Shown in pieces: positions 2,668 to 59,277 of a stretch of DNA of 64,000 nt; the stretch's first letter is position 1, and every line of letters begins with the position of its first letter. The notes beneath the pieces are model-generated. The model saw only the letters and a program-made list of their open reading frames with translations, was not told where the DNA came from and did not search any database. The stretch is taken from assembly GCF_007641235.1 (NCBI RefSeq), contig NZ_CP038157.1, forward strand, positions 2,108,001 through 2,172,000, read 5' to 3'. A program made the position numbers and the translations under genes. This stretch comes from Corynebacterium sanguinis. Lineage in GTDB: Bacteria > Actinomycetota > Actinomycetes > Mycobacteriales > Mycobacteriaceae.

Positions 2668-3096
2668 ATGACTAACCAGAACCCCACCCCGGATCCGAAG
2701 GACCCCCGTAACCTGGACAAGGATGCCGTCGCGAACGCTGACGTTACCCGTGTCGAGAAGACCACCACCCCCGCTACCACTAGCGCCACCGCCGGCTCCA
2801 CGGCCGTGACCGCTAACGAGGGCGGCGGCTGGTGGAAGTGGCTGCTGGGCCTGCTCGCCCTGCTGCTCATCGGCTGGCTGCTCTGGTCCCTGTTCGCCAA
2901 CAACGACGACGAGGCCGCCACCACCGGCGAGACCTCCACCTCCGTTGTTTCGACCGAGACCGAAAACGTCACCGAGACCGCAGTGGTCAGCGGCGAGTCC
3001 GAGCCGGCTAACCCGGCCGAGAGCGCTGGCAACGCCGCTGAGGGCGCAGCCGAAAACGCTGGCGACGCCGTCGAGAGCGCAGCTCCCACCAACTAG
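2668..3096 (+). CDS. Small single-pass membrane protein, Thr/Ala/Glu-rich
   Basis: A 142-residue protein with a polar Pro/Asp/Thr-rich N-terminal half, one strong membrane segment at about residues 54-76 (WWKWLLGLLALLLIGWLLW), and an acidic Thr/Glu/Ala-rich tail. No signal-peptidase site or known domain is visible. The N-terminus lacks a positive cluster other than a few Lys, so orientation is uncertain. The start is set by a good ribosome site (GAAAGGA, about 8 nt before ATG). It is a single-gene unit followed at once by a strong terminator, and the 256-nt upstream gap holds its promoter. Codon use looks like highly expressed corynebacterial genes. I do not recognise the family and assign no function. 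Confidence 0.75.
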   Translation: MTNQNPTPDPKDPRNLDKDAVANADVTRVEKTTTPATTSATAGSTAVTANEGGGWWKWLLGLLALLLIGWLLWSLFANNDDEAATTGETSTSVVSTETENVTETAVVSGESEPANPAESAGNAAEGAAENAGDAVESAAPTN

Positions 3097-3132
3097 TTTC
3101 TAGCCGTGGCCACCCCGGCCCGTAGAACTCGA

Positions 3133-3166
3133 CCCCGCATCCTGCTCGCGCAGGGCGCGGGGTTTT
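3133..3166 (+). terminator. Rho-independent terminator after the 142-aa gene
   Basis: Stem arms CCCCGC/GCGGGG and an inner CCTGC/GCAGG pair around a TCGC loop, followed by TTTTGTTG. It closes the transcript that begins at 2668 and separates it from the palindrome cluster. Confidence 0.75.
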
Positions 3167-3205
3167 GTTGTGGGCGCGTGAGGTGGGTGCGATTTGCGCG
3201 GATGT

Positions 3206-3673
3206 GAGTCCGCATTGCGAACCCGTGGACTCCACGCACTCTGCAGCGGCAGAGTGGCCAGTCCGCATTGCGGACTCTGCCGGCAGCCTTGCTTGCCGAC
3301 GCTCAACTTCACGGTCGCCCCGACTCCGCATTGCGGACTCTACATTGCGGACTCTGCAGCGGCAGAGTGGCCAGTCCGCATTGCGGACTCCGCAGCAGCA
3401 AAGGCAAACTGTGAAAACACTGCACAGAAAGCCACCTGGGTGTTGACGGATTCCGCGCACTCTGCATTGCGGACTCCACCCGGCCCCCGCTAACCAACAC
3501 TCAATCAAACCCCACCCCAACTCCGCATTGCGGACTCCACACGCAGCCTTGCTTGCCGACGCTCAACTTCACGGTCGTCCCGACTCCGCATTGCGGACTC
3601 TACAAACTCCGCAGCGCCAGAGTGACTACTCTACAAACTCCGCAGCGGCAGAGTGACCACTCCGCATTGCGGA
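3206..3673. repeat. Palindrome cluster A (TCCGCATTGCGGA)
   Basis: A non-coding stretch with the 13-bp odd palindrome TCCGCATTGCGGA, exact at 3262-3274, 3325-3337, 3375-3387, 3522-3534, 3585-3597 and 3661-3673. There is a one-mismatch copy at 3461-3473 and partial copies near 3206 and 3343. Most copies are extended to AGTCCGCA/TGCGGACT or ACTCCGCA/TGCGGACTC. Two nested duplications are visible: 3283-3344 recurs at 3543-3604 with one clear difference, and 3241-3277 recurs at 3354-3390. The cluster lies between the 3' ends of two convergent transcripts (the 142-aa gene and ilvC). It has no regular spacing and no unique spacers, so it is not CRISPR. Confidence 0.85.
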
Positions 3674-7489: not shown

Positions 7490-8932
7490 ATGCCGTACGC
7501 CTACATCGCCGAAGAAGCCTGGCGCTGGGTCGCCAACACCGGAATCAACCTCGCACTGCTGATTATCCTCGCGATGCTTGTGCCCCGCGCGGGCCGCTTC
7601 GCCAACCGGGTCGCTGAACGACGCGCCGACGCCCAAGCGGATAACGACGAGGCGAAAAGCCAGCTGGCCATCGCCGGTGTGGGCATCTATATCGCGCAGG
7701 CGATCGCGTTCTTCCTCATCCTGGTCTTCTTCCTGCAAGAGGTCGGGTTCTCGCTTGCCGGCGCAGCGATCCCGGCGACCGTGGTCTCGGCCGCAATCGG
7801 TTTCGGCGCGCAGAACATCATCGCCGACTTCCTCGCCGGGTTTTTCGTCCTGACGGAAAAGCAGTACGGTGTGGGCGACTTCGTCACCTTTGAAGGCAAC
7901 GGGATCGAGGTCTCCGGCAACGTCATCCAGATCACGATGCGCGCGACCCAGATCCGCACGATGGAGCAATCGACGATCAGCATCCCCAACTCGACCGCGC
8001 GCATCTGCATCAACCAATCCAACTACTGGGCCTCCGCGGTGGTCGTCATCCCGGTCCCGCTGCTCGGCTCGACCAGCGCCGACGAGGCCGTCGCGCGCTC
8101 GGAATCGGCCGCCCGCCGCGCGCTGAACCGGGCGGATATTCGCCCCAAGCTTCTCGACGACCTCACGGTGCACCCCGCCGTGGACATCAACCCTCCTGCC
8201 ACTGTGGGTATGCCGTGGACGCTGGACATGCGCTTCATCGTCCGCGTCGAGCCGTTGGCGCAGTGGATGGTCGAGCGCGCGATCCGCCTGTCGGTTCTCA
8301 ACGAGTTCTGGGAGGAGTACGGCTCAGCCACCACCATCGAGGGCACTCGCCTCGACCACGTCGTGGACCACACCGAGCAGTTCAACAGTGTTGACCGCTA
8401 CCCACCCACCGAGTACATGTCCCCGGTCAGCCCACTGAGCACCCAGCGCAGCGACCACGACGACCTCACCCCCGCCGATCCTGACGAGGACCCGGCGACC
8501 GACGTGCTCGCCGACGACGAAAAGGCCATGCCGCGCATGGCGTTCGGCGGGGCACTGCGCTTGTCGACGGCCCTCCTCATCGGCGCCTTCATTATCCTGC
8601 TCATTATCCGCGGCCTCACGCTCGACCCTGACGGCGAGGACACCGGCAGCGGCTGGCTCGCACCGCCGCCGGAAACCCCCACCTCCGAGACCGAGGATCC
8701 GGTCGAGGACTCGCCGACCCGGGCGCCCGCCCCCGCGCCGACCCAGACGCCGACACAGTCGCCGGCTCCGGCACCCAGCACGGCACAGCCGACGGCGCCT
8801 CGGACTCCGACTCCGTCGCCCGCAGAAACCAGTACCCAGGGCGAGCCCACGCAGCCGCCAGCCCCGGGCGTGACGGAAGGGGCGTCGATTAGCGAAGCTC
8901 CCCCTGCCGAGGCCGGAAACCCACTTGGCTAG
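7490..8932 (+). CDS. mscCG: MscCG-type mechanosensitive channel / glutamate exporter
   Basis: A 480-residue MscS-superfamily channel of the corynebacterial MscCG type, the route of glutamate and betaine efflux in C. glutamicum. The N-terminal half has three membrane segments. The pore helix and beta domain are very close to MscCG: FSLAGAAIPATVVSAAIGFGAQ and ADFLAGFFVLTEKQYGVGDFV. Unlike short MscS, it has a long extension with an acidic linker, a fourth membrane segment near residues 363-380 (LSTALLIGAFIILLIIRGL) and a Pro/Thr/Ala-rich outer tail, which in MscCG tunes gating. It is transcribed divergently from ilvBNC and lies 9 nt before the PH-domain gene. The start ATG is preceded by AAGAAAG at 6 nt. 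Confidence 0.93.
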   Translation: MPYAYIAEEAWRWVANTGINLALLIILAMLVPRAGRFANRVAERRADAQADNDEAKSQLAIAGVGIYIAQAIAFFLILVFFLQEVGFSLAGAAIPATVVSAAIGFGAQNIIADFLAGFFVLTEKQYGVGDFVTFEGNGIEVSGNVIQITMRATQIRTMEQSTISIPNSTARICINQSNYWASAVVVIPVPLLGSTSADEAVARSESAARRALNRADIRPKLLDDLTVHPAVDINPPATVGMPWTLDMRFIVRVEPLAQWMVERAIRLSVLNEFWEEYGSATTIEGTRLDHVVDHTEQFNSVDRYPPTEYMSPVSPLSTQRSDHDDLTPADPDEDPATDVLADDEKAMPRMAFGGALRLSTALLIGAFIILLIIRGLTLDPDGEDTGSGWLAPPPETPTSETEDPVEDSPTRAPAPAPTQTPTQSPAPAPSTAQPTAPRTPTPSPAETSTQGEPTQPPAPGVTEGASISEAPPAEAGNPLG

Positions 8933-23485: not shown

Positions 23486-23785
23486 CTAGTCCCCTTCTCC
23501 CAGAATCTGCGGCACCACGAAGCGCTCTTCCTCCACAGCGGGGGCCTGGTCAAGCGCCTGCTTTTGGGTCAGGGTCCGCTTTTCCACGTCCTTTCGCATC
23601 CCGGCGTCGATGGAGTGCGGGTGGCTCATCGGCGTCACACCTTCGGTATCGACTTGGCGCACCTTGGACACTGCGTCGACGATGTGGTCGAGCTGCGGCG
23701 CGATCTGGTCGAGCTCCTCATCGCTGAGCGCGATGCGGGCGAGACGCGCGATGCGCGAGACCTCGTCTCTGGAAATTTCGGACAA
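23486..23785 (-). CDS. gatC: Asp-tRNA(Asn)/Glu-tRNA(Gln) amidotransferase subunit C
   Basis: A 99-residue stabilising subunit that wraps around GatA and GatB. The family pattern is clear: [20 protein letters not shown], the middle [12 protein letters not shown], and the C-terminal [12 protein letters not shown] propose the TTG at 23785 as start: it has AGGAAAG 3-4 nt upstream and gives the usual 99-residue length, whereas the first ATG in frame lies far inside the domain and a longer frame (to 23821) adds unrelated residues. Confidence 0.93.
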
Positions 23786-42371: not shown

Positions 42372-43223
42372 CTACTTGGCGCGATGCGTTCCCCCGCGGC
42401 TGGTGCGCCGCGCCGTGTACCGGCCGTCACGCGAGGTCACCTCGATCGGCTGGTGGTAGGCCCGGCTGACGTTTTCGGAGGTCAGCACGTCGTCGATAAG
42501 CCCCTGCGCGACGACCTCCCCCTCGTCGAGAAGCATGGCGTGCGTAAAGCCCGGCGGGATTTCCTCGACGTGGTGGGTAATCATCACGATCGCCGGCGCG
42601 TCGGGGTCCATCGCGAGATCGCCGAGATAGGCGACGAGGTCCTCACGCCCGCCCAGGTCCATCCCGGCGGCCGGCTCGTCCATGATCAGCAGCTCCGGGT
42701 TCGTCATGATGGCGCGCGCGATCAGCACCCGCTTGCGTTCGCCGTCGGATAGCGTGCCCCAGGTGCGGTCGATCAAATGCATCGCACCGACCTGCTCGAG
42801 CACCTCGAGCGCCTGGTCATAGTCCATCTCGTCGTACTCTTCGCGCCACCGGCCCAAAATCGCGTAGCCGGCGGAAACGACGAGGTCTCCGACCCTCTCC
42901 TCCGCCGGAACGCACTGCGCCACCGCCGAGGATGTCACGCCGATCTGGGCGCGCAGGTCGCGCATGTCGGTGCGGCCGAGCTGCTCCCCGACCACAAACG
43001 CCGTACCCGCTGACGGGAATTCCTGGGCCGACGCCATGCGGATCAAGGTGGTCTTGCCCGCGCCGTTGGGCCCGATGACAACCCAGCGCTCGTCGAGCTC
43101 GACCTGCCAGTCGATGGGGCCTACTAACGTGGACCCGCCGCGTGCGAACTCCACGCCCTGAAAGTCGATGAGCAAGTCGGGGTCGGTCTCCGGTTCAATT
43201 GCACGATCAGTCACGCTTTCCAT
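42372..43223 (-). CDS. Stand-alone ABC transporter ATPase
   Basis: A 283-residue ATP-binding cassette. Walker A is GPNGAGKTTL, the signature is LSDGERKRVLIARAI (LSDGE in place of LSGGQ), Walker B is LLIMDEPAAGMDLGG and the switch His is in VMITHHVEEI. No permease gene is adjacent. The sequence type (molybdate/ModF- or YlmA-like single cassettes) and the shifted signature fit a cassette of uncertain partner. It starts at ATG 43223, facing the 85-bp tandem array. The Nudix gene follows after a 25-nt gap. Confidence 0.87.
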   Translation of the reverse strand: MESVTDRAIEPETDPDLLIDFQGVEFARGGSTLVGPIDWQVELDERWVVIGPNGAGKTTLIRMASAQEFPSAGTAFVVGEQLGRTDMRDLRAQIGVTSSAVAQCVPAEERVGDLVVSAGYAILGRWREEYDEMDYDQALEVLEQVGAMHLIDRTWGTLSDGERKRVLIARAIMTNPELLIMDEPAAGMDLGGREDLVAYLGDLAMDPDAPAIVMITHHVEEIPPGFTHAMLLDEGEVVAQGLIDDVLTSENVSRAYHQPIEVTSRDGRYTARRTSRGGTHRAK

Positions 43224-43348
43224 TGTGGACTAAAAGGGCTCATCGCGTTATCAAGTGAATTGATCTTTTCCCGTGGGCCGGCACAGCGGTTGGGGTTTGG
43301 CGTTTTTGTCGTGTTTATCTGCGGAGGATTTCTCGTCGCTGGTTGACC

Positions 43349-44298
43349 GTGACATTTCAGGCGGCGAAAAGTCACAGTCAACCAACTACACACCCCAAAA
43401 CCCCAGGTCACCCCCAACACAACTAGCTCGACCGTGACATCCCAGGCGGTGAAATGTCACAGTCAACCCGCCGCGGACGGCAAAACCCCAGGTCGGGTCC
43501 GGCAAGATTGGCTCCACCGTGACATCCCAGGCGGTGAAATGTCACAGTCAACCCGCCGCGGACGGCAAAACCCCAGGTCGGGTCCGGCAAGATTGGCTCC
43601 ACCGTGACATCCCAGCCGGTGAAATGTCACAGTCAACCCGCCGCGGACGGCAAAACCCCAGGTCGGGTCCGGCAAGATTGGCTCCACCGTGACATCCCAG
43701 GCGGTGAAATATCACAATCAACCCGCCGCGGACGGCAAAACACCAGGTCGGGTCCGGCAAGATTGGCTCCACCGTGACATCCCAGGCGGCGGAATATCAC
43801 AATCAACCCGCCGCGGACGGCAAAACCCCAGGTCGGGTCCGGCAAGATTGGCTCCACCGTGACATCCCAGGCGGCGGAATATCACAATCAACCCGCCGCG
43901 GACGGCAAAACCCCAGGTCGGGTCCGGCAGGATTGGCTCCACCGTGACATCCCAGCCGGTGAAATGTCACAGTCAACCCGCCGCGGACGGCAAAACCCCA
44001 GGTCGGGTCCGGCAGGATTGGCTCCACCGTGACATCTCAGCCGGTGAAATGTCACAGTCAACCCGCCGCGGACGGCAAAACCCCAGGTCGGGTCCGGCAG
44101 GATTGGCTCCACCGTGACATCTCAGCCGGTGAAATGTCACAGTCAACCCGCCGCGGACGGTAAAACACCAGGTCGGGTCCGGCAGGATCCGCCCCACCGT
44201 GACATCCCAGGCGGTGAAATGTCACAGTCAACCAACTACGCACCGCAAAACCCCAGGTCATCCCCAACACAACTAGCTCGACCGTGACATCCCACCCG
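43349..44298. repeat. Tandem array of 85-bp units, each with an inverted repeat
   Basis: Eleven full units with exact 85-bp spacing (starting at 43349, 43434, 43519 and so on to 44199), plus a partial twelfth at 44284. Each unit contains GTGACAT and ATGTCAC (or close variants) about 13 nt apart, then a GC-rich segment with AAAACCCCAGGTC. Units 2-10 share CCCGCCGCGGACGG...GGTCGGGTCCGGCA; units 1 and 11 carry a different second half (CAACTACRCACC ... AACTAGCTCG). Unit 1 has longer arms (GGTTGAC and GTCAACC outside the core). The array lies in the 1.3-kb divergent gap between the ABC ATPase gene and glgE. The unit length is not a multiple of three, and the short open frames inside it are an artefact. 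Confidence 0.95.
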
Positions 44299-44533
44299 GA
44301 GCCACACCCGCGGCAGACAGTGACAGGAGCAACCCCGGCTGCAGGCGGCGATGAGTACACCCTCAACCTCCTGCACCCCCGACCCCAAACCCCGGCCCCA
44401 GCGCCTGCATTCACAACGTAAAACCCGCCCTCCGGTGGCACCGCATCCTCGCCCGGCACGTCACCGTGGCAGTGGCTACTGTTGAAAAGTGAAAGCCATT
44501 GGCACACACGAAGTCTCGAGGTAGGTAAACCGC
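44299..44533 (+). promoter_or_regulatory. glgE upstream region
   Basis: 235 nt between the end of the tandem array and glgE. TACTGT at 44477-44482 is the best -10 match, which would give a 5' leader of about 45 nt; no convincing -35 box is seen. The ribosome site AGGTAGG lies 8 nt before ATG. The first 150 nt are C-rich and show nothing I recognise. Confidence 0.35.
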
Positions 44534-46600
44534 ATGACCATGACCGGACGCTCTGGCCACACTGGCAGTATCACTTCTTTCGGCCGTTTCGGAATCGACG
44601 ACGTTCGCCCCCAGGTCTCCGGGCGCACCCTGCCGTCGAAGGCGGTAGTCGGCGAGGTCGTCCCGGTCTCGGCGCTGGTGTGGCGCGAGGGCCACGACGC
44701 GGTTGCGGCCACGTTGGAGCTGACGTCGCCAAGCGGGGAGCAGTATTCCATCCTCATGCAGCAGGAGGTTTACCGCCCCGACTATGTCCACGCAGTGTTC
44801 GTTCCGGATGTGCAGGGTATCTGGCGCTTCCGCGTCGACGCATGGAGCGACCCCATGTCGACGTGGCGCAACGCCGTGTCGAAGAAGCTCGCCGCCGGGC
44901 AATCCGCCGCGGAGCTGTCCAACGACATTGCCCACGGCATCGACCTGTTCACCCGCGCCGCAGCCCAATCCCCGGACGGCGACCGGGGGGTTCTTGAGGC
45001 CGTAGCGACGACGCTTGCCGACGACACCCTCCCCCTGGCGACCCGCATTGAGGAGGGACTCAGCGCCGAGGTGCGCGAGATCCTCGACGAGTTCCCGCTG
45101 CGCGAGCAGGTCACCCGCGGGCCGATCTGCGATGTTCACGTCGAGCGCCGTGCTGCGCTGGTCAATTCCTGGTACGAGCTCTTCCCCCGCTCCACGGGCG
45201 GCGTCGACGCCGAGGGCAAACCCGTGCACGGCACGTGGGAAACCACCTCGGCTGCGCTCGATCGCGTGGCGGCGATGGGTTTTGACACCGTCTACTTTCC
45301 CCCGATCCACCCGATCGGTGAGGTCAACCGCAAAGGCCGCAACAACACTCTGACGCCTGAGGAAAGTGACGTGGGCTCGCCGTGGGCGGTCGGTTCCGCC
45401 GACGGCGGCCACGACGCGTTCCACCCGGAGCTCGGCGGCGAAGCCGAGTTCCTGGCCATGATGGATCACGCCCGCGAGCTGGGCCTTGAGGTCGCCCTCG
45501 ACTTTGCGCTGCAGGCCGCGCCCGACCACCCCTGGGCCAGCGAGCACCCCGAGTTTTTCACGGTGCTTGCCGATGGCACCATCGCCTACGCCGAGAACCC
45601 GCCGAAGAAATACCAGGACATCTACCCGATCAACTTCGACAACGACCCGCACGTGCTCTACGCGGAGATCTACCGCGTGATCATGTACTGGGTCGAGCTC
45701 GGTGTGACCACGTTCCGCGTGGACAACCCGCACACCAAGCCGGTGAACTTCTGGCACTGGCTCATCTCGGAAGTGCGCGAAACCCACCCCGATGTCATCT
45801 TCCTCGCCGAGGCGTTTACCCGCCCGCCGCGCATGTTCGGCCTGTCCAAGGTCGGGTTCTCCCAGTCGTACACCCACTTCACGTGGAAGACCTCGAAGGC
45901 TGAGCTGGAAGACTTCGCGCAGATGCTTATCGACGTCGCCGACGTCTCGCGCCCCAACCTCTTCGTCAACACCCCCGATATCCTGCACGAATCGCTGCAG
46001 ACCGGTGGCAAAGCAGCCTTCGCGATCCGCGCCACGCTCGCGGCGACGCTGAGCCCGTTGTGGGGCGTCTACTCCGGCTACGAGCTCTACGAGCACGAGC
46101 CGGTCACGGCTGGCTCCGAGGAGTACCTCAACTCAGAGAAGTACGAGCTGCGCCCGCGCGACTTCGCGGCGGCGCTCGCCCGCGGCGAGTCGCTCGAGCC
46201 CTACCTGACGCTGCTCAACCGCCTGCGCCGCGACAACCCGGCGCTGCAGCAGCTGCGCCAGCTGCACTTCCACAAGGCCTACAACGAGCAGATCATGGCG
46301 TACTCCAAGGTCGACGCGATCAGCGGCAACGCGATTTTGGTCGTGGTCAACCTCGACCCCTTCGCCACGCAGGAGGGCATGGTCCACATCGACGCCGAGG
46401 CGATCGGACTCGCCCCCGGTGAGAGTTTCACCGTCGACGACCTGGTCAGCGGCGAGCGCTACACGTGGAGCACCGACAACTTCGTGCGGCTGACCCCGCA
46501 GGCCAACGTCGCCCACATTTTCCGGCTGCCGGTCGTGGAGGCGTCGAAACGCGAGCAGCTCGCGTTCCGCAGCATCTCGGACCACGACTACCGGCCGTAA
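44534..46600 (+). CDS. glgE: Alpha-1,4-glucan:maltose-1-phosphate maltosyltransferase
   Basis: A 688-residue GH13_3 enzyme that extends alpha-1,4-glucans with maltose 1-phosphate. After an N-terminal beta domain (TLPSKAVVGEVVPVSALVWREGH), the barrel shows MGFDTVYFPPIHPIGEVNRKG, the nucleophile Asp in TTFRVDNPHTKP and the acid Glu in DVIFLAEAFTRPPRM, with the C-terminal domain carrying NLDPFATQEGMV. In C. glutamicum and mycobacteria it works with GlgB and feeds from trehalose (TreS/Pep2) or GlgM. It is 74 nt upstream of glgB on the same strand. The start is ATG 44534, behind AGGTAGG. Confidence 0.96.
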   Translation: MTMTGRSGHTGSITSFGRFGIDDVRPQVSGRTLPSKAVVGEVVPVSALVWREGHDAVAATLELTSPSGEQYSILMQQEVYRPDYVHAVFVPDVQGIWRFRVDAWSDPMSTWRNAVSKKLAAGQSAAELSNDIAHGIDLFTRAAAQSPDGDRGVLEAVATTLADDTLPLATRIEEGLSAEVREILDEFPLREQVTRGPICDVHVERRAALVNSWYELFPRSTGGVDAEGKPVHGTWETTSAALDRVAAMGFDTVYFPPIHPIGEVNRKGRNNTLTPEESDVGSPWAVGSADGGHDAFHPELGGEAEFLAMMDHARELGLEVALDFALQAAPDHPWASEHPEFFTVLADGTIAYAENPPKKYQDIYPINFDNDPHVLYAEIYRVIMYWVELGVTTFRVDNPHTKPVNFWHWLISEVRETHPDVIFLAEAFTRPPRMFGLSKVGFSQSYTHFTWKTSKAELEDFAQMLIDVADVSRPNLFVNTPDILHESLQTGGKAAFAIRATLAATLSPLWGVYSGYELYEHEPVTAGSEEYLNSEKYELRPRDFAAALARGESLEPYLTLLNRLRRDNPALQQLRQLHFHKAYNEQIMAYSKVDAISGNAILVVVNLDPFATQEGMVHIDAEAIGLAPGESFTVDDLVSGERYTWSTDNFVRLTPQANVAHIFRLPVVEASKREQLAFRSISDHDYRP

Positions 46601-58922: not shown

Positions 58923-59277
58923 AGTTGTAACGCTCAGCGTTCTCTCCCGTTCTCGGGCCGCATAACGGTTGAAATGCGGTGCGATGGACGTCTTCAAGAA
59001 GACTGTCTCCGCGGCGGACTCCGTCGCACATCAGCGACCGCGGGACAGGGGGAGCCTTGAAGTGAAATCCCCGCCAACACACAGGTGCGCACGCGGATAC
59101 CTCAAGTAAACCCAGCGGTTAGCCTAACAGGTCAACAACTTTTTGGCCGTCAACGGGGGGTGTGGGTTCTCTAGCGGAGATACACGTGTGCCCAGCACCC
59201 GAGCGCGTGGCCCGTTTACCCAGCGTAGCGCGCCTTGTAATTTGCATCACAGGGGGTGGGTTCAGCGCTGGATCACA
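58923..59277 (-). promoter_or_regulatory. Promoter region of the atp operon
   Basis: A 355-nt gap between atpI and atpB with no gene. On the minus strand, TTGACG (59153-59148), TTGACC (59135-59130) and TAGGCT (59126-59121) lie close together, but none of the pairs has a clean 16-18-nt spacer. The position and length point to the main promoter of atpBEFHAGDC. The exact boxes are unresolved. Confidence 0.4.

Follow-up and report, generated by a model that had tools for sequence, protein, structure and literature searches.

What are eleven near-identical 85-bp units doing between the gene for an ABC transporter ATPase and glgE? The array lies in a window of 64,000 nucleotides (G000:C1:2108001-2172000), taken from a Corynebacterium genome (G000) that consists of one contig of 2,362,885 bp; positions without a contig name are those of the window. 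An earlier note on this DNA had described eleven units with an exact 85-bp period over 935 bp, located in a divergent gap between these two genes, and both statements are borne out. TRF reports a period of 85 at 43346-44259, with 10.8 copies, 93% matches and 0% indels, and reading by hand gives 935 bp, or 11 units of exactly 85 bp each (Table 1). The ATPase and glgE genes lie on the minus and plus strands, respectively. The note had also described GTGACAT and ATGTCAC arms about 13 nt apart. The inner gap between the half-sites is indeed 13 nt, but the arms are not exact in every unit: both are perfect in seven of the 11, whereas unit 1 contains AAGTCAC and units 5-7 contain ATATCAC. Two units carry the core variant AAAACACCAGGTC. 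The array has no coding sense, as had been claimed; 85 is not divisible by three, and a TGA in each unit places stops in every forward frame, which led us to reject a coding repeat. A CRISPR array could also be ruled out, as the variable part repeats from unit to unit and there are no unique spacers.

Table 1. Features of the array, its neighbours and the second repeat family of the same genome (window positions unless a contig is named).
Feature	Position	Strand	Basis or remark
11 tandem 85-bp units (family 1)	43346..44280	+	TRF and reading by hand
Broken-off twelfth unit, start only (ACCGTGACATCCCACCCGG)	44281..44299	+	Comparable decay at right end of other arrays
Left half-site GTGACAT, unit 1	43349..43355	+	Recurs every 85 bp
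Right half-site ATGTCAC (AAGTCAC in unit 1)	43369..43375	-	Recurs every 85 bp
Conserved core AAAACCCCAGGTC, unit 1	43397..43409	+	Recurs every 85 bp; next at 43482-43494
First arm-core-arm element, 72 bp, natural unit	43369..43440	+	Inferred from single-copy elements and arrays of other species
ABC transporter ATPase gene, left neighbour, outside the system	42372..43223	-	PF00005
glgE, right neighbour, outside the system	44534..46600	+	GlgE_dom_N_S, GLGE_C
Family 2 loci (word TGGACTGCGCAATTT, same core where seen)	G000:C1 318, 365, 401.5, 874, 1449, 1565.6, 1642, 1665.6, 1694.7 kb		

The 85-bp unit has 76 matches in this genome by BLAST, most of them outside the window array, so the array is not a product of chance; a sequence model finds at least 124. 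There are at least 19 array loci, 17 from BLAST and two more at 787.6 and 978.7 kb. The 17 arrays contain 94 whole units and 77 junctions, and every junction is exactly 85 bp despite wide divergence between loci, in support of the rigid spacing noted earlier for the window array. When a looser cut-off is used, edge units spaced 84 and 86 bp are seen in this genome, and 86 and 87 bp in the sister species. Spacing is irregular at locus L108 (G000:C1:787.6-787.9 kb), a hybrid in which elements with family 1 arms are separated by a gap containing a family 2-like word. Over the 94 units of the 17 loci, the information content is 1.83 bits in the half-sites (positions 4-10 and 24-30), 1.28 in the outer arms, 1.44 in the core, and 0.48 and 0.28 in the spacers. 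Half-sites that are near-identical across 17 loci, next to spacers that have diverged, support in outline a role at the DNA level through sequence-specific recognition, as had been proposed. The narrower proposal, a role in promoter spacing tied to this gap, is not supported. According to gene calls made around the loci with our own codon-score script, the 17 arrays occupy six convergent, six tandem and five divergent gaps, and a sigma-70 scan of the window array returned three weak promoter-like sites, one each in units 5-7 (43689-43718, 43774-43803 and 43859-43888; 0.2 in shuffles). Family 1 arm words with one mismatch also lie outside the arrays, among the matches listed at G000:C1 244678, 783376, 1403713 and 2083196.

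Two things could not be seen by the author of the earlier note: the natural unit is arm-core-arm (ATGTCAC...AAAACCCCAGGTC...GTGACAT), and the array belongs to a family dispersed over the genome. Read in this way, the window array is a run of eleven elements, the last of which takes its closing GTGACAT from the broken twelfth unit. The same genome contains a second family, whose word TGGACTGCGCAATTT yields 27 half-sites at up to two mismatches (reversed pattern, 0); a solitary half-site with two mismatches at 332.5 kb and another within L108 are not counted among the nine loci in Table 1. A control scan of 270 kb of the genome gave five hits in three stretches, all of them TGGACTGCGCAATTT or a near form. 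Thus, the control measured a second real family and not noise.

In the sister species (G020), 16 of our loci could be tested and three could not; 15 of the 16 have an array at the orthologous place, 14 of these with another number of units. At the window locus the count is 11 here and two in G020, which supports the earlier suggestion of an unstable locus; as G020 is a draft assembly, its low unit numbers may partly reflect assembly collapse. No clean empty site was found among the tested loci: at the single sister locus without an array, other genes occupy the place. According to the earlier note, a function would be unlikely if identical units were absent from all relatives, did not vary in length and bound no protein. 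Relatives do carry units, and their numbers vary, so that this part of the test did not refute a function.

The core extends well beyond the sister pair. Of 242 Corynebacterium genomes, 73 contain the 17-mer GCAAAACCCCAGGTCGC with at most one mismatch, whereas the reversed control pattern has a total of two matches. Among 83 distinct cores (70 loci; part of the cores counted genus-wide), 53 are enclosed by an exact inverted repeat of 9 bp or more, compared with 5 of 341 control positions from the same loci; after loci of own-type species had been dropped, the share was 41 of 68. A second sequence model, together with inspection of weak matches, revealed that the cores are flanked by unrelated inverted arms. 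Within a genome, one arm word recurs at scattered loci with diverged spacers, as does TGTGACAATGTTGTGTT at five loci of G015 (one copy mismatched). GTGACAT arms are found in our genome, G020, G041, G058 and G117, GTCGACC arms in G066 and G155, and CGATATCG arms in G016, G151, G163 and G187. The arms have also changed at places that lineages have in common. At the 3' end of ackA (PF00871), the arrays have GTGACAT arms in our genome and GTCGACC arms in G066. Downstream of a Pyr_redox_2 gene, G066 and G155 carry arrays of the GTCGACC type, and G163 has two CGATATCG elements separated by an extra gene. The elements are dispersed and intergenic, and they combine a genus-wide core with arms that are largely alike across the loci of a genome but differ between lineages. 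In other genera the core gave 22 matches in 21 of 293 genomes, compared with six for the reversed control, and a repeat of at least 9 bp was present at one of eight core loci checked; this is a slight excess, and we provisionally treat the family as belonging to Corynebacterium. The literature searched, which covered few subscription papers, contained no description of these elements, and the six papers in which the core letters occur are unrelated by title.

An element search with a sequence model was positive in all seven genomes searched. In other species the element is constant and the distance between neighbouring elements changes. Array periods are 77 bp in G058; 84, 94 and 179 (94 + 85) in G117; 83, 72, 62 and 104 in G155; and 72, 83, 84 and 62 in G066. 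In these four genomes, the half-sites on either side of the core are 62 bp apart when measured by hand, although a scripted centre distance varies more across the genus. In G117 (L097, L098, L100), two unit types, GTGACAT and GTGACCC, stand within one array with the period of 179. G041 has single elements. The locus beside def (PF01327) contains, counted by eye, one element in G041, two in G058 and about eight in G117, compared with ten units in our genome. There are ten distinct periods (62, 72, 77, 83, 84, 85, 94, 104, 112 and 147), most of them near whole helical turns, which we take as a hint only. A strict helical law was set aside: the Rayleigh test gives p of about 0.02 at 10.5 bp, a value chosen post hoc, and the periods of 77 and 112 are off phase.

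Comparison of the genes flanking the elements brought out one recurrent protein family. Its profile matches are weak (REase_MTES_1575 and DUF559; AbiEi for the member from our genome). Of 242 Corynebacterium genomes, 171 encode it, in one to nine copies. It is found in 25 of 26 genomes with at least three cores, compared with 146 of 216 genomes with fewer (relatedness is uncontrolled in this comparison). We fetched 60 loci for the nuclease, each a stretch of about 3 kb, and scored as an element a core with up to four mismatches plus an inverted repeat of at least 9 bp. An element was present at 17 loci (two of them weak: L265 and L294), a core without arms at one, and neither at 42. The element lies on the 5' side of the nuclease gene at 12 of the 17, on both sides at one and on the 3' side at four. 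A further 11 loci with nuclease and element had been met first through the element or array. At seven of the 60 nuclease loci the word also occurs elsewhere in the genome (G163, G151, G187, G000, G054, G152 and G175).

Elements recur beside these AbiEi-like nuclease genes, and related nucleases have the same arm word adjacent. For each of the five best protein matches after the seed proteins (G163, G077, G151, G187 and G002), a CGATATCG element lies 4-118 bp away from the open frame; this word was known beforehand from three of the five genomes, and not from G077 and G002. A tree of 71 nucleases shows the CGATATCG-linked proteins as monophyletic (6/6), and likewise the GTGACAT-linked ones (5/5), and four GTTAGTCCCGT-linked proteins form a clade together with one unlabelled protein. 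Four genomes (G148, G152, G041 and our own) each have at least two paralogues with different words nearby. The association is far from complete. At seven paralogues (G202, G049, G129, G103 and three in G009) the expected word was found at none; the paralogues seen in G066 (three of seven) and G155 (two of four) include no partner for the GTCGACC word of these genomes; and G015 has one word at five loci, yet a single weak relative of the nuclease.

In our genome, each of the two families has a member beside a different paralogue. Nuclease 1 (309 aa) lies at 1.0996 Mb, and one family 1 array ends 68 bp before its start codon; nuclease 2 lies at 1695265 and has TGGACTGCGCAATTT elements beside the gene. 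Each family is concentrated around its own nuclease. Six of the 19 family 1 loci are within 60 kb of nuclease 1 (0.96 expected, p 2.6e-4) and none is near nuclease 2, while three of the nine family 2 loci are within 60 kb of nuclease 2 (0.46 expected, p 0.009) and none is near nuclease 1. The cluster around nuclease 1 recurs in relatives, where it is not independent because gene order is shared. We had considered replication terminus or macrodomain sites and set them aside: the six-array cluster at 1.09-1.14 Mb is only 0.3 Mb from dnaA (0.81 Mb), skew samples are too weak to place the terminus, and the position of nuclease 1 (1.0996 Mb) accounts better for the cluster.

The AlphaFold2 model of the nuclease (33 homologues) has a pLDDT of 92.6 and a pTM of 0.89. 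The first Foldseek match is Rv2827c (1zel), an AbiEi-family antitoxin, with a probability of 1.00 but a TM score of 0.32, the best E value (only 1.7e-3) and an r.m.s. deviation of 9.3. The second is the catalytic domain of I-Bth0305I (3r3p), with a TM score of 0.81 to the target; 3hrl appears after unrelated ribosome chains, and TnsA weakly. A profile search finds 3hrl with an E value of 3e-6 and 3r3p with 0.32. The protein from our genome scores 34.6-35.6 bits against the MTES_1575-type PD-(D/E)XK nucleases (PF18741), under the cut-off of 38.2, and matches AbiEi in PADLOC with an E value of 3e-4; the G016 protein has no PADLOC AbiEi match. Five residues, Glu204, Asp231, Glu241, Asp243 and Lys247, are kept in 71 of 71 nucleases. 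A study of AbiEi and Rv2827c describes AbiEi as binding two 23-bp inverted repeats 3 bp apart and Rv2827c as binding pairs 13 bp apart, and states that neither protein binds the other's repeats (PMC7319586).

We estimate a probability of roughly 0.6 that the array arose by tandem amplification within a family of small non-coding arm-core-arm elements, maintained in a REPIN-RAYT-like partnership between repeats and a dedicated, unrelated nuclease. Arms that are largely alike across loci and different between lineages suggest a sequence-specific factor acting in trans, with a specificity that shifts, and the AbiEi-like nuclease is the best candidate for this factor. Like known AbiEi proteins, which bind inverted repeats, its AbiEi-like part would bind the pair of arms, and its nuclease part would nick or cut the element. 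Repair from other copies could then spread and homogenise the family and make unit numbers jump. The core may bind some shared partner or be the cut site itself, and with an exact period of 85 bp, about eight turns, all sites would face the same side of the helix. What the data show directly is the family, its conservation and its adjacency to the nuclease genes; binding, cutting, spreading and array growth are inferred. By analogy to REPIN-RAYT, in which dispersed palindromic pairs depend on a single dedicated enzyme that is not itself mobile, the nuclease would maintain its elements by nicking or cutting and templated repair, which would also explain the jumps in unit number.

The protein link would also be accounted for if the nuclease were mainly an autoregulated DNA-binder whose operators had spread passively by duplication and now structured the chromosome or titrated the protein, with no cutting involved. 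The 5' position of the element at 12 of the 17 element-bearing nuclease loci is what an operator would predict; AbiEi and Rv2827c do autoregulate through inverted repeats (PMC7319586), and near-helical spacing suits cooperative binding. Many of the sites, however, follow gene ends and are not in promoters, and the invariance of the predicted active-site residues in all 71 proteins argues for catalysis. We consider this explanation unlikely.

A link with the protein would be incidental if the elements were bidirectional transcription terminators or insulators at gene ends. Among 62 loci with both neighbours called, 24 are convergent, 23 tandem and 15 divergent (raw counts, with no background rate), and some of the single elements of G041, read by eye, lie between convergent stop codons; the window array, by contrast, sits in a divergent gap. 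In 17 of 17 arrays of our genome (L010-L026), the oriented strand is rich in G+T to the left and rich in A+C at the right end, so that RNA leaving either side would be C-rich; across the genus this polarity is weak (45 of 70), and we rejected a Rho-type bidirectional terminator for this reason. A terminator scan gave six overlapping sites in three of the 11 units, compared with 2.1 in shuffles, but eight units have no terminator-like site, and the sites lack the GC-rich hairpin and T-run of an intrinsic terminator, being confined to the minus strand, with short stems and a mixed tail. As termination needs neither a uniform arm word per genome nor an 85-bp rigidity, we find this explanation improbable.

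Relics of MITE-like DNA transposons, with the arms as terminal repeats and tandem arrays formed by replication slippage, would have inverted arms, small size, dispersal and lineage-specific arms, all of which are seen here. A 17-bp core common to families with unrelated arms is unexpected for independent MITEs, however, and 15 of 16 testable loci are common to the sister species, so that we give this origin very little credence.

Least credible of all are structured RNA repeats with the arms as stem and the core as loop: arms do differ between lineages yet remain complementary, and the outermost variable pair, 81-38, can pair in 65 of 94 units (52.8 in shuffles; 0 of 500 shuffles reach it), so pairing may still play a role and would fit a stem, but the other variable pairs do not exceed shuffles (at 3-31 and 85-34 they are lower, 38/94 against 51.9 and 41/94 against 54.3) and units of one array share the same states, the seven half-site pairs are the same at every locus and do not drift as pairs, and the array has no Rfam match. 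An apparent anti-correlation of arm mismatches (no unit has both C85 and G34) was set aside, because states shared within arrays are not independent.

Returning to the partnership of repeats and nuclease, its closest parallel is REPIN-RAYT. In PMC3116915, REPINs are described as dispersed extragenic inverted pairs of several flavours per genome, which also occur in tandem arrays, with a different REPIN cluster beside each single-copy RAYT gene. Our elements are likewise dispersed and extragenic, and they are mainly inverted doublets by the repeat counts given above. The candidate enzyme differs, being AbiEi-like with a PD-(D/E)XK-type nuclease, and so do the core common to all flavours and the near-helical spacing of the arrays. 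A Y1 transposase of the RAYT type (PF01797) was found in none of the seven array-bearing genomes (the control was positive in 5 of 14 known genomes). Thus, the system is not a member of REPIN-RAYT, although it may work like one.

The likeness to AbiEi antitoxins consists of the matches to 1zel and PADLOC AbiEi and the known binding of inverted repeats; unlike those antitoxins, the protein has a C-terminal nuclease domain, and its candidate sites are dispersed genome-wide and not limited to its own promoter. The gene that follows nuclease 1, the only one scanned for an AbiE toxin (AbiEii/DUF1814), encodes LytR_C and no DUF1814. The C-terminal domain resembles the EDxHD homing endonuclease I-Bth0305I and Vsr (3r3p and 3hrl, by predicted structure and profile). 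In contrast to a homing endonuclease gene, the nuclease gene stays in place at the def locus in five genomes, and the numerous part is the short element. Two other families of repeats invite comparison as well. Like our arrays, the MIRU-VNTR arrays of mycobacteria consist of intergenic tandem units, 50-100 bp long and variable in number; ours differ in having inverted arms, a core that is conserved and an enzyme gene linked to them. The BIME/REP elements of enterobacteria are palindromic units that often follow gene ends. Our palindromic units are also often 3' of genes, and differ in sequence, enzyme and spacing.

A bolder proposal, which we advance tentatively and which may well be wrong, is that these elements define a separate class of repeat-enzyme system. 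AbiEi-like proteins with a domain of the homing-endonuclease type would maintain genome-wide populations of elements by cutting and repair copying; when a paralogue of new specificity takes over, the arms of the old sites would be rewritten while core and place stay, as may have happened at the ackA end and in the Pyr_redox_2 interval, and the near-helical spacing would reflect the geometry of the bound complex. If the partnership of repeats and nuclease is real, REPIN-RAYT would not be a one-off: short palindromic repeats would have gained a comparable lasting partner with a second, unrelated enzyme fold. This would point to a function for proteins that are so far uncharacterised (AbiEi-like N-terminus plus DUF559/MTES_1575). 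The matched pairs of enzyme and site, with their many specificities, could serve to study the evolution of DNA recognition, and the arrays could provide VNTR-like markers for typing these species.

Finally, we record some minor observations. In G066, a gene for a Mutator-family transposase (PF00872; L089, 3727-4965) lies shortly after the ackA array. Some elements (L130, L131 and L187) are adjoined by the DnaA-box-like sequence TTATCCACA or its complement. Three elements of G054 with the same word (L203, L204 and L205) are directly preceded by similar HNH genes, with PF01844 in the one that was scanned; we set these genes aside, as they are similar paralogues that may have been copied with the element. 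The window itself contains further short tandem repeats at 3016-3662, 8712-8764 and 23671-23761, and its sole Rfam match at gathering score is the atpB RNA motif (RF02916), located away from the array at 58924-59048 on the minus strand.
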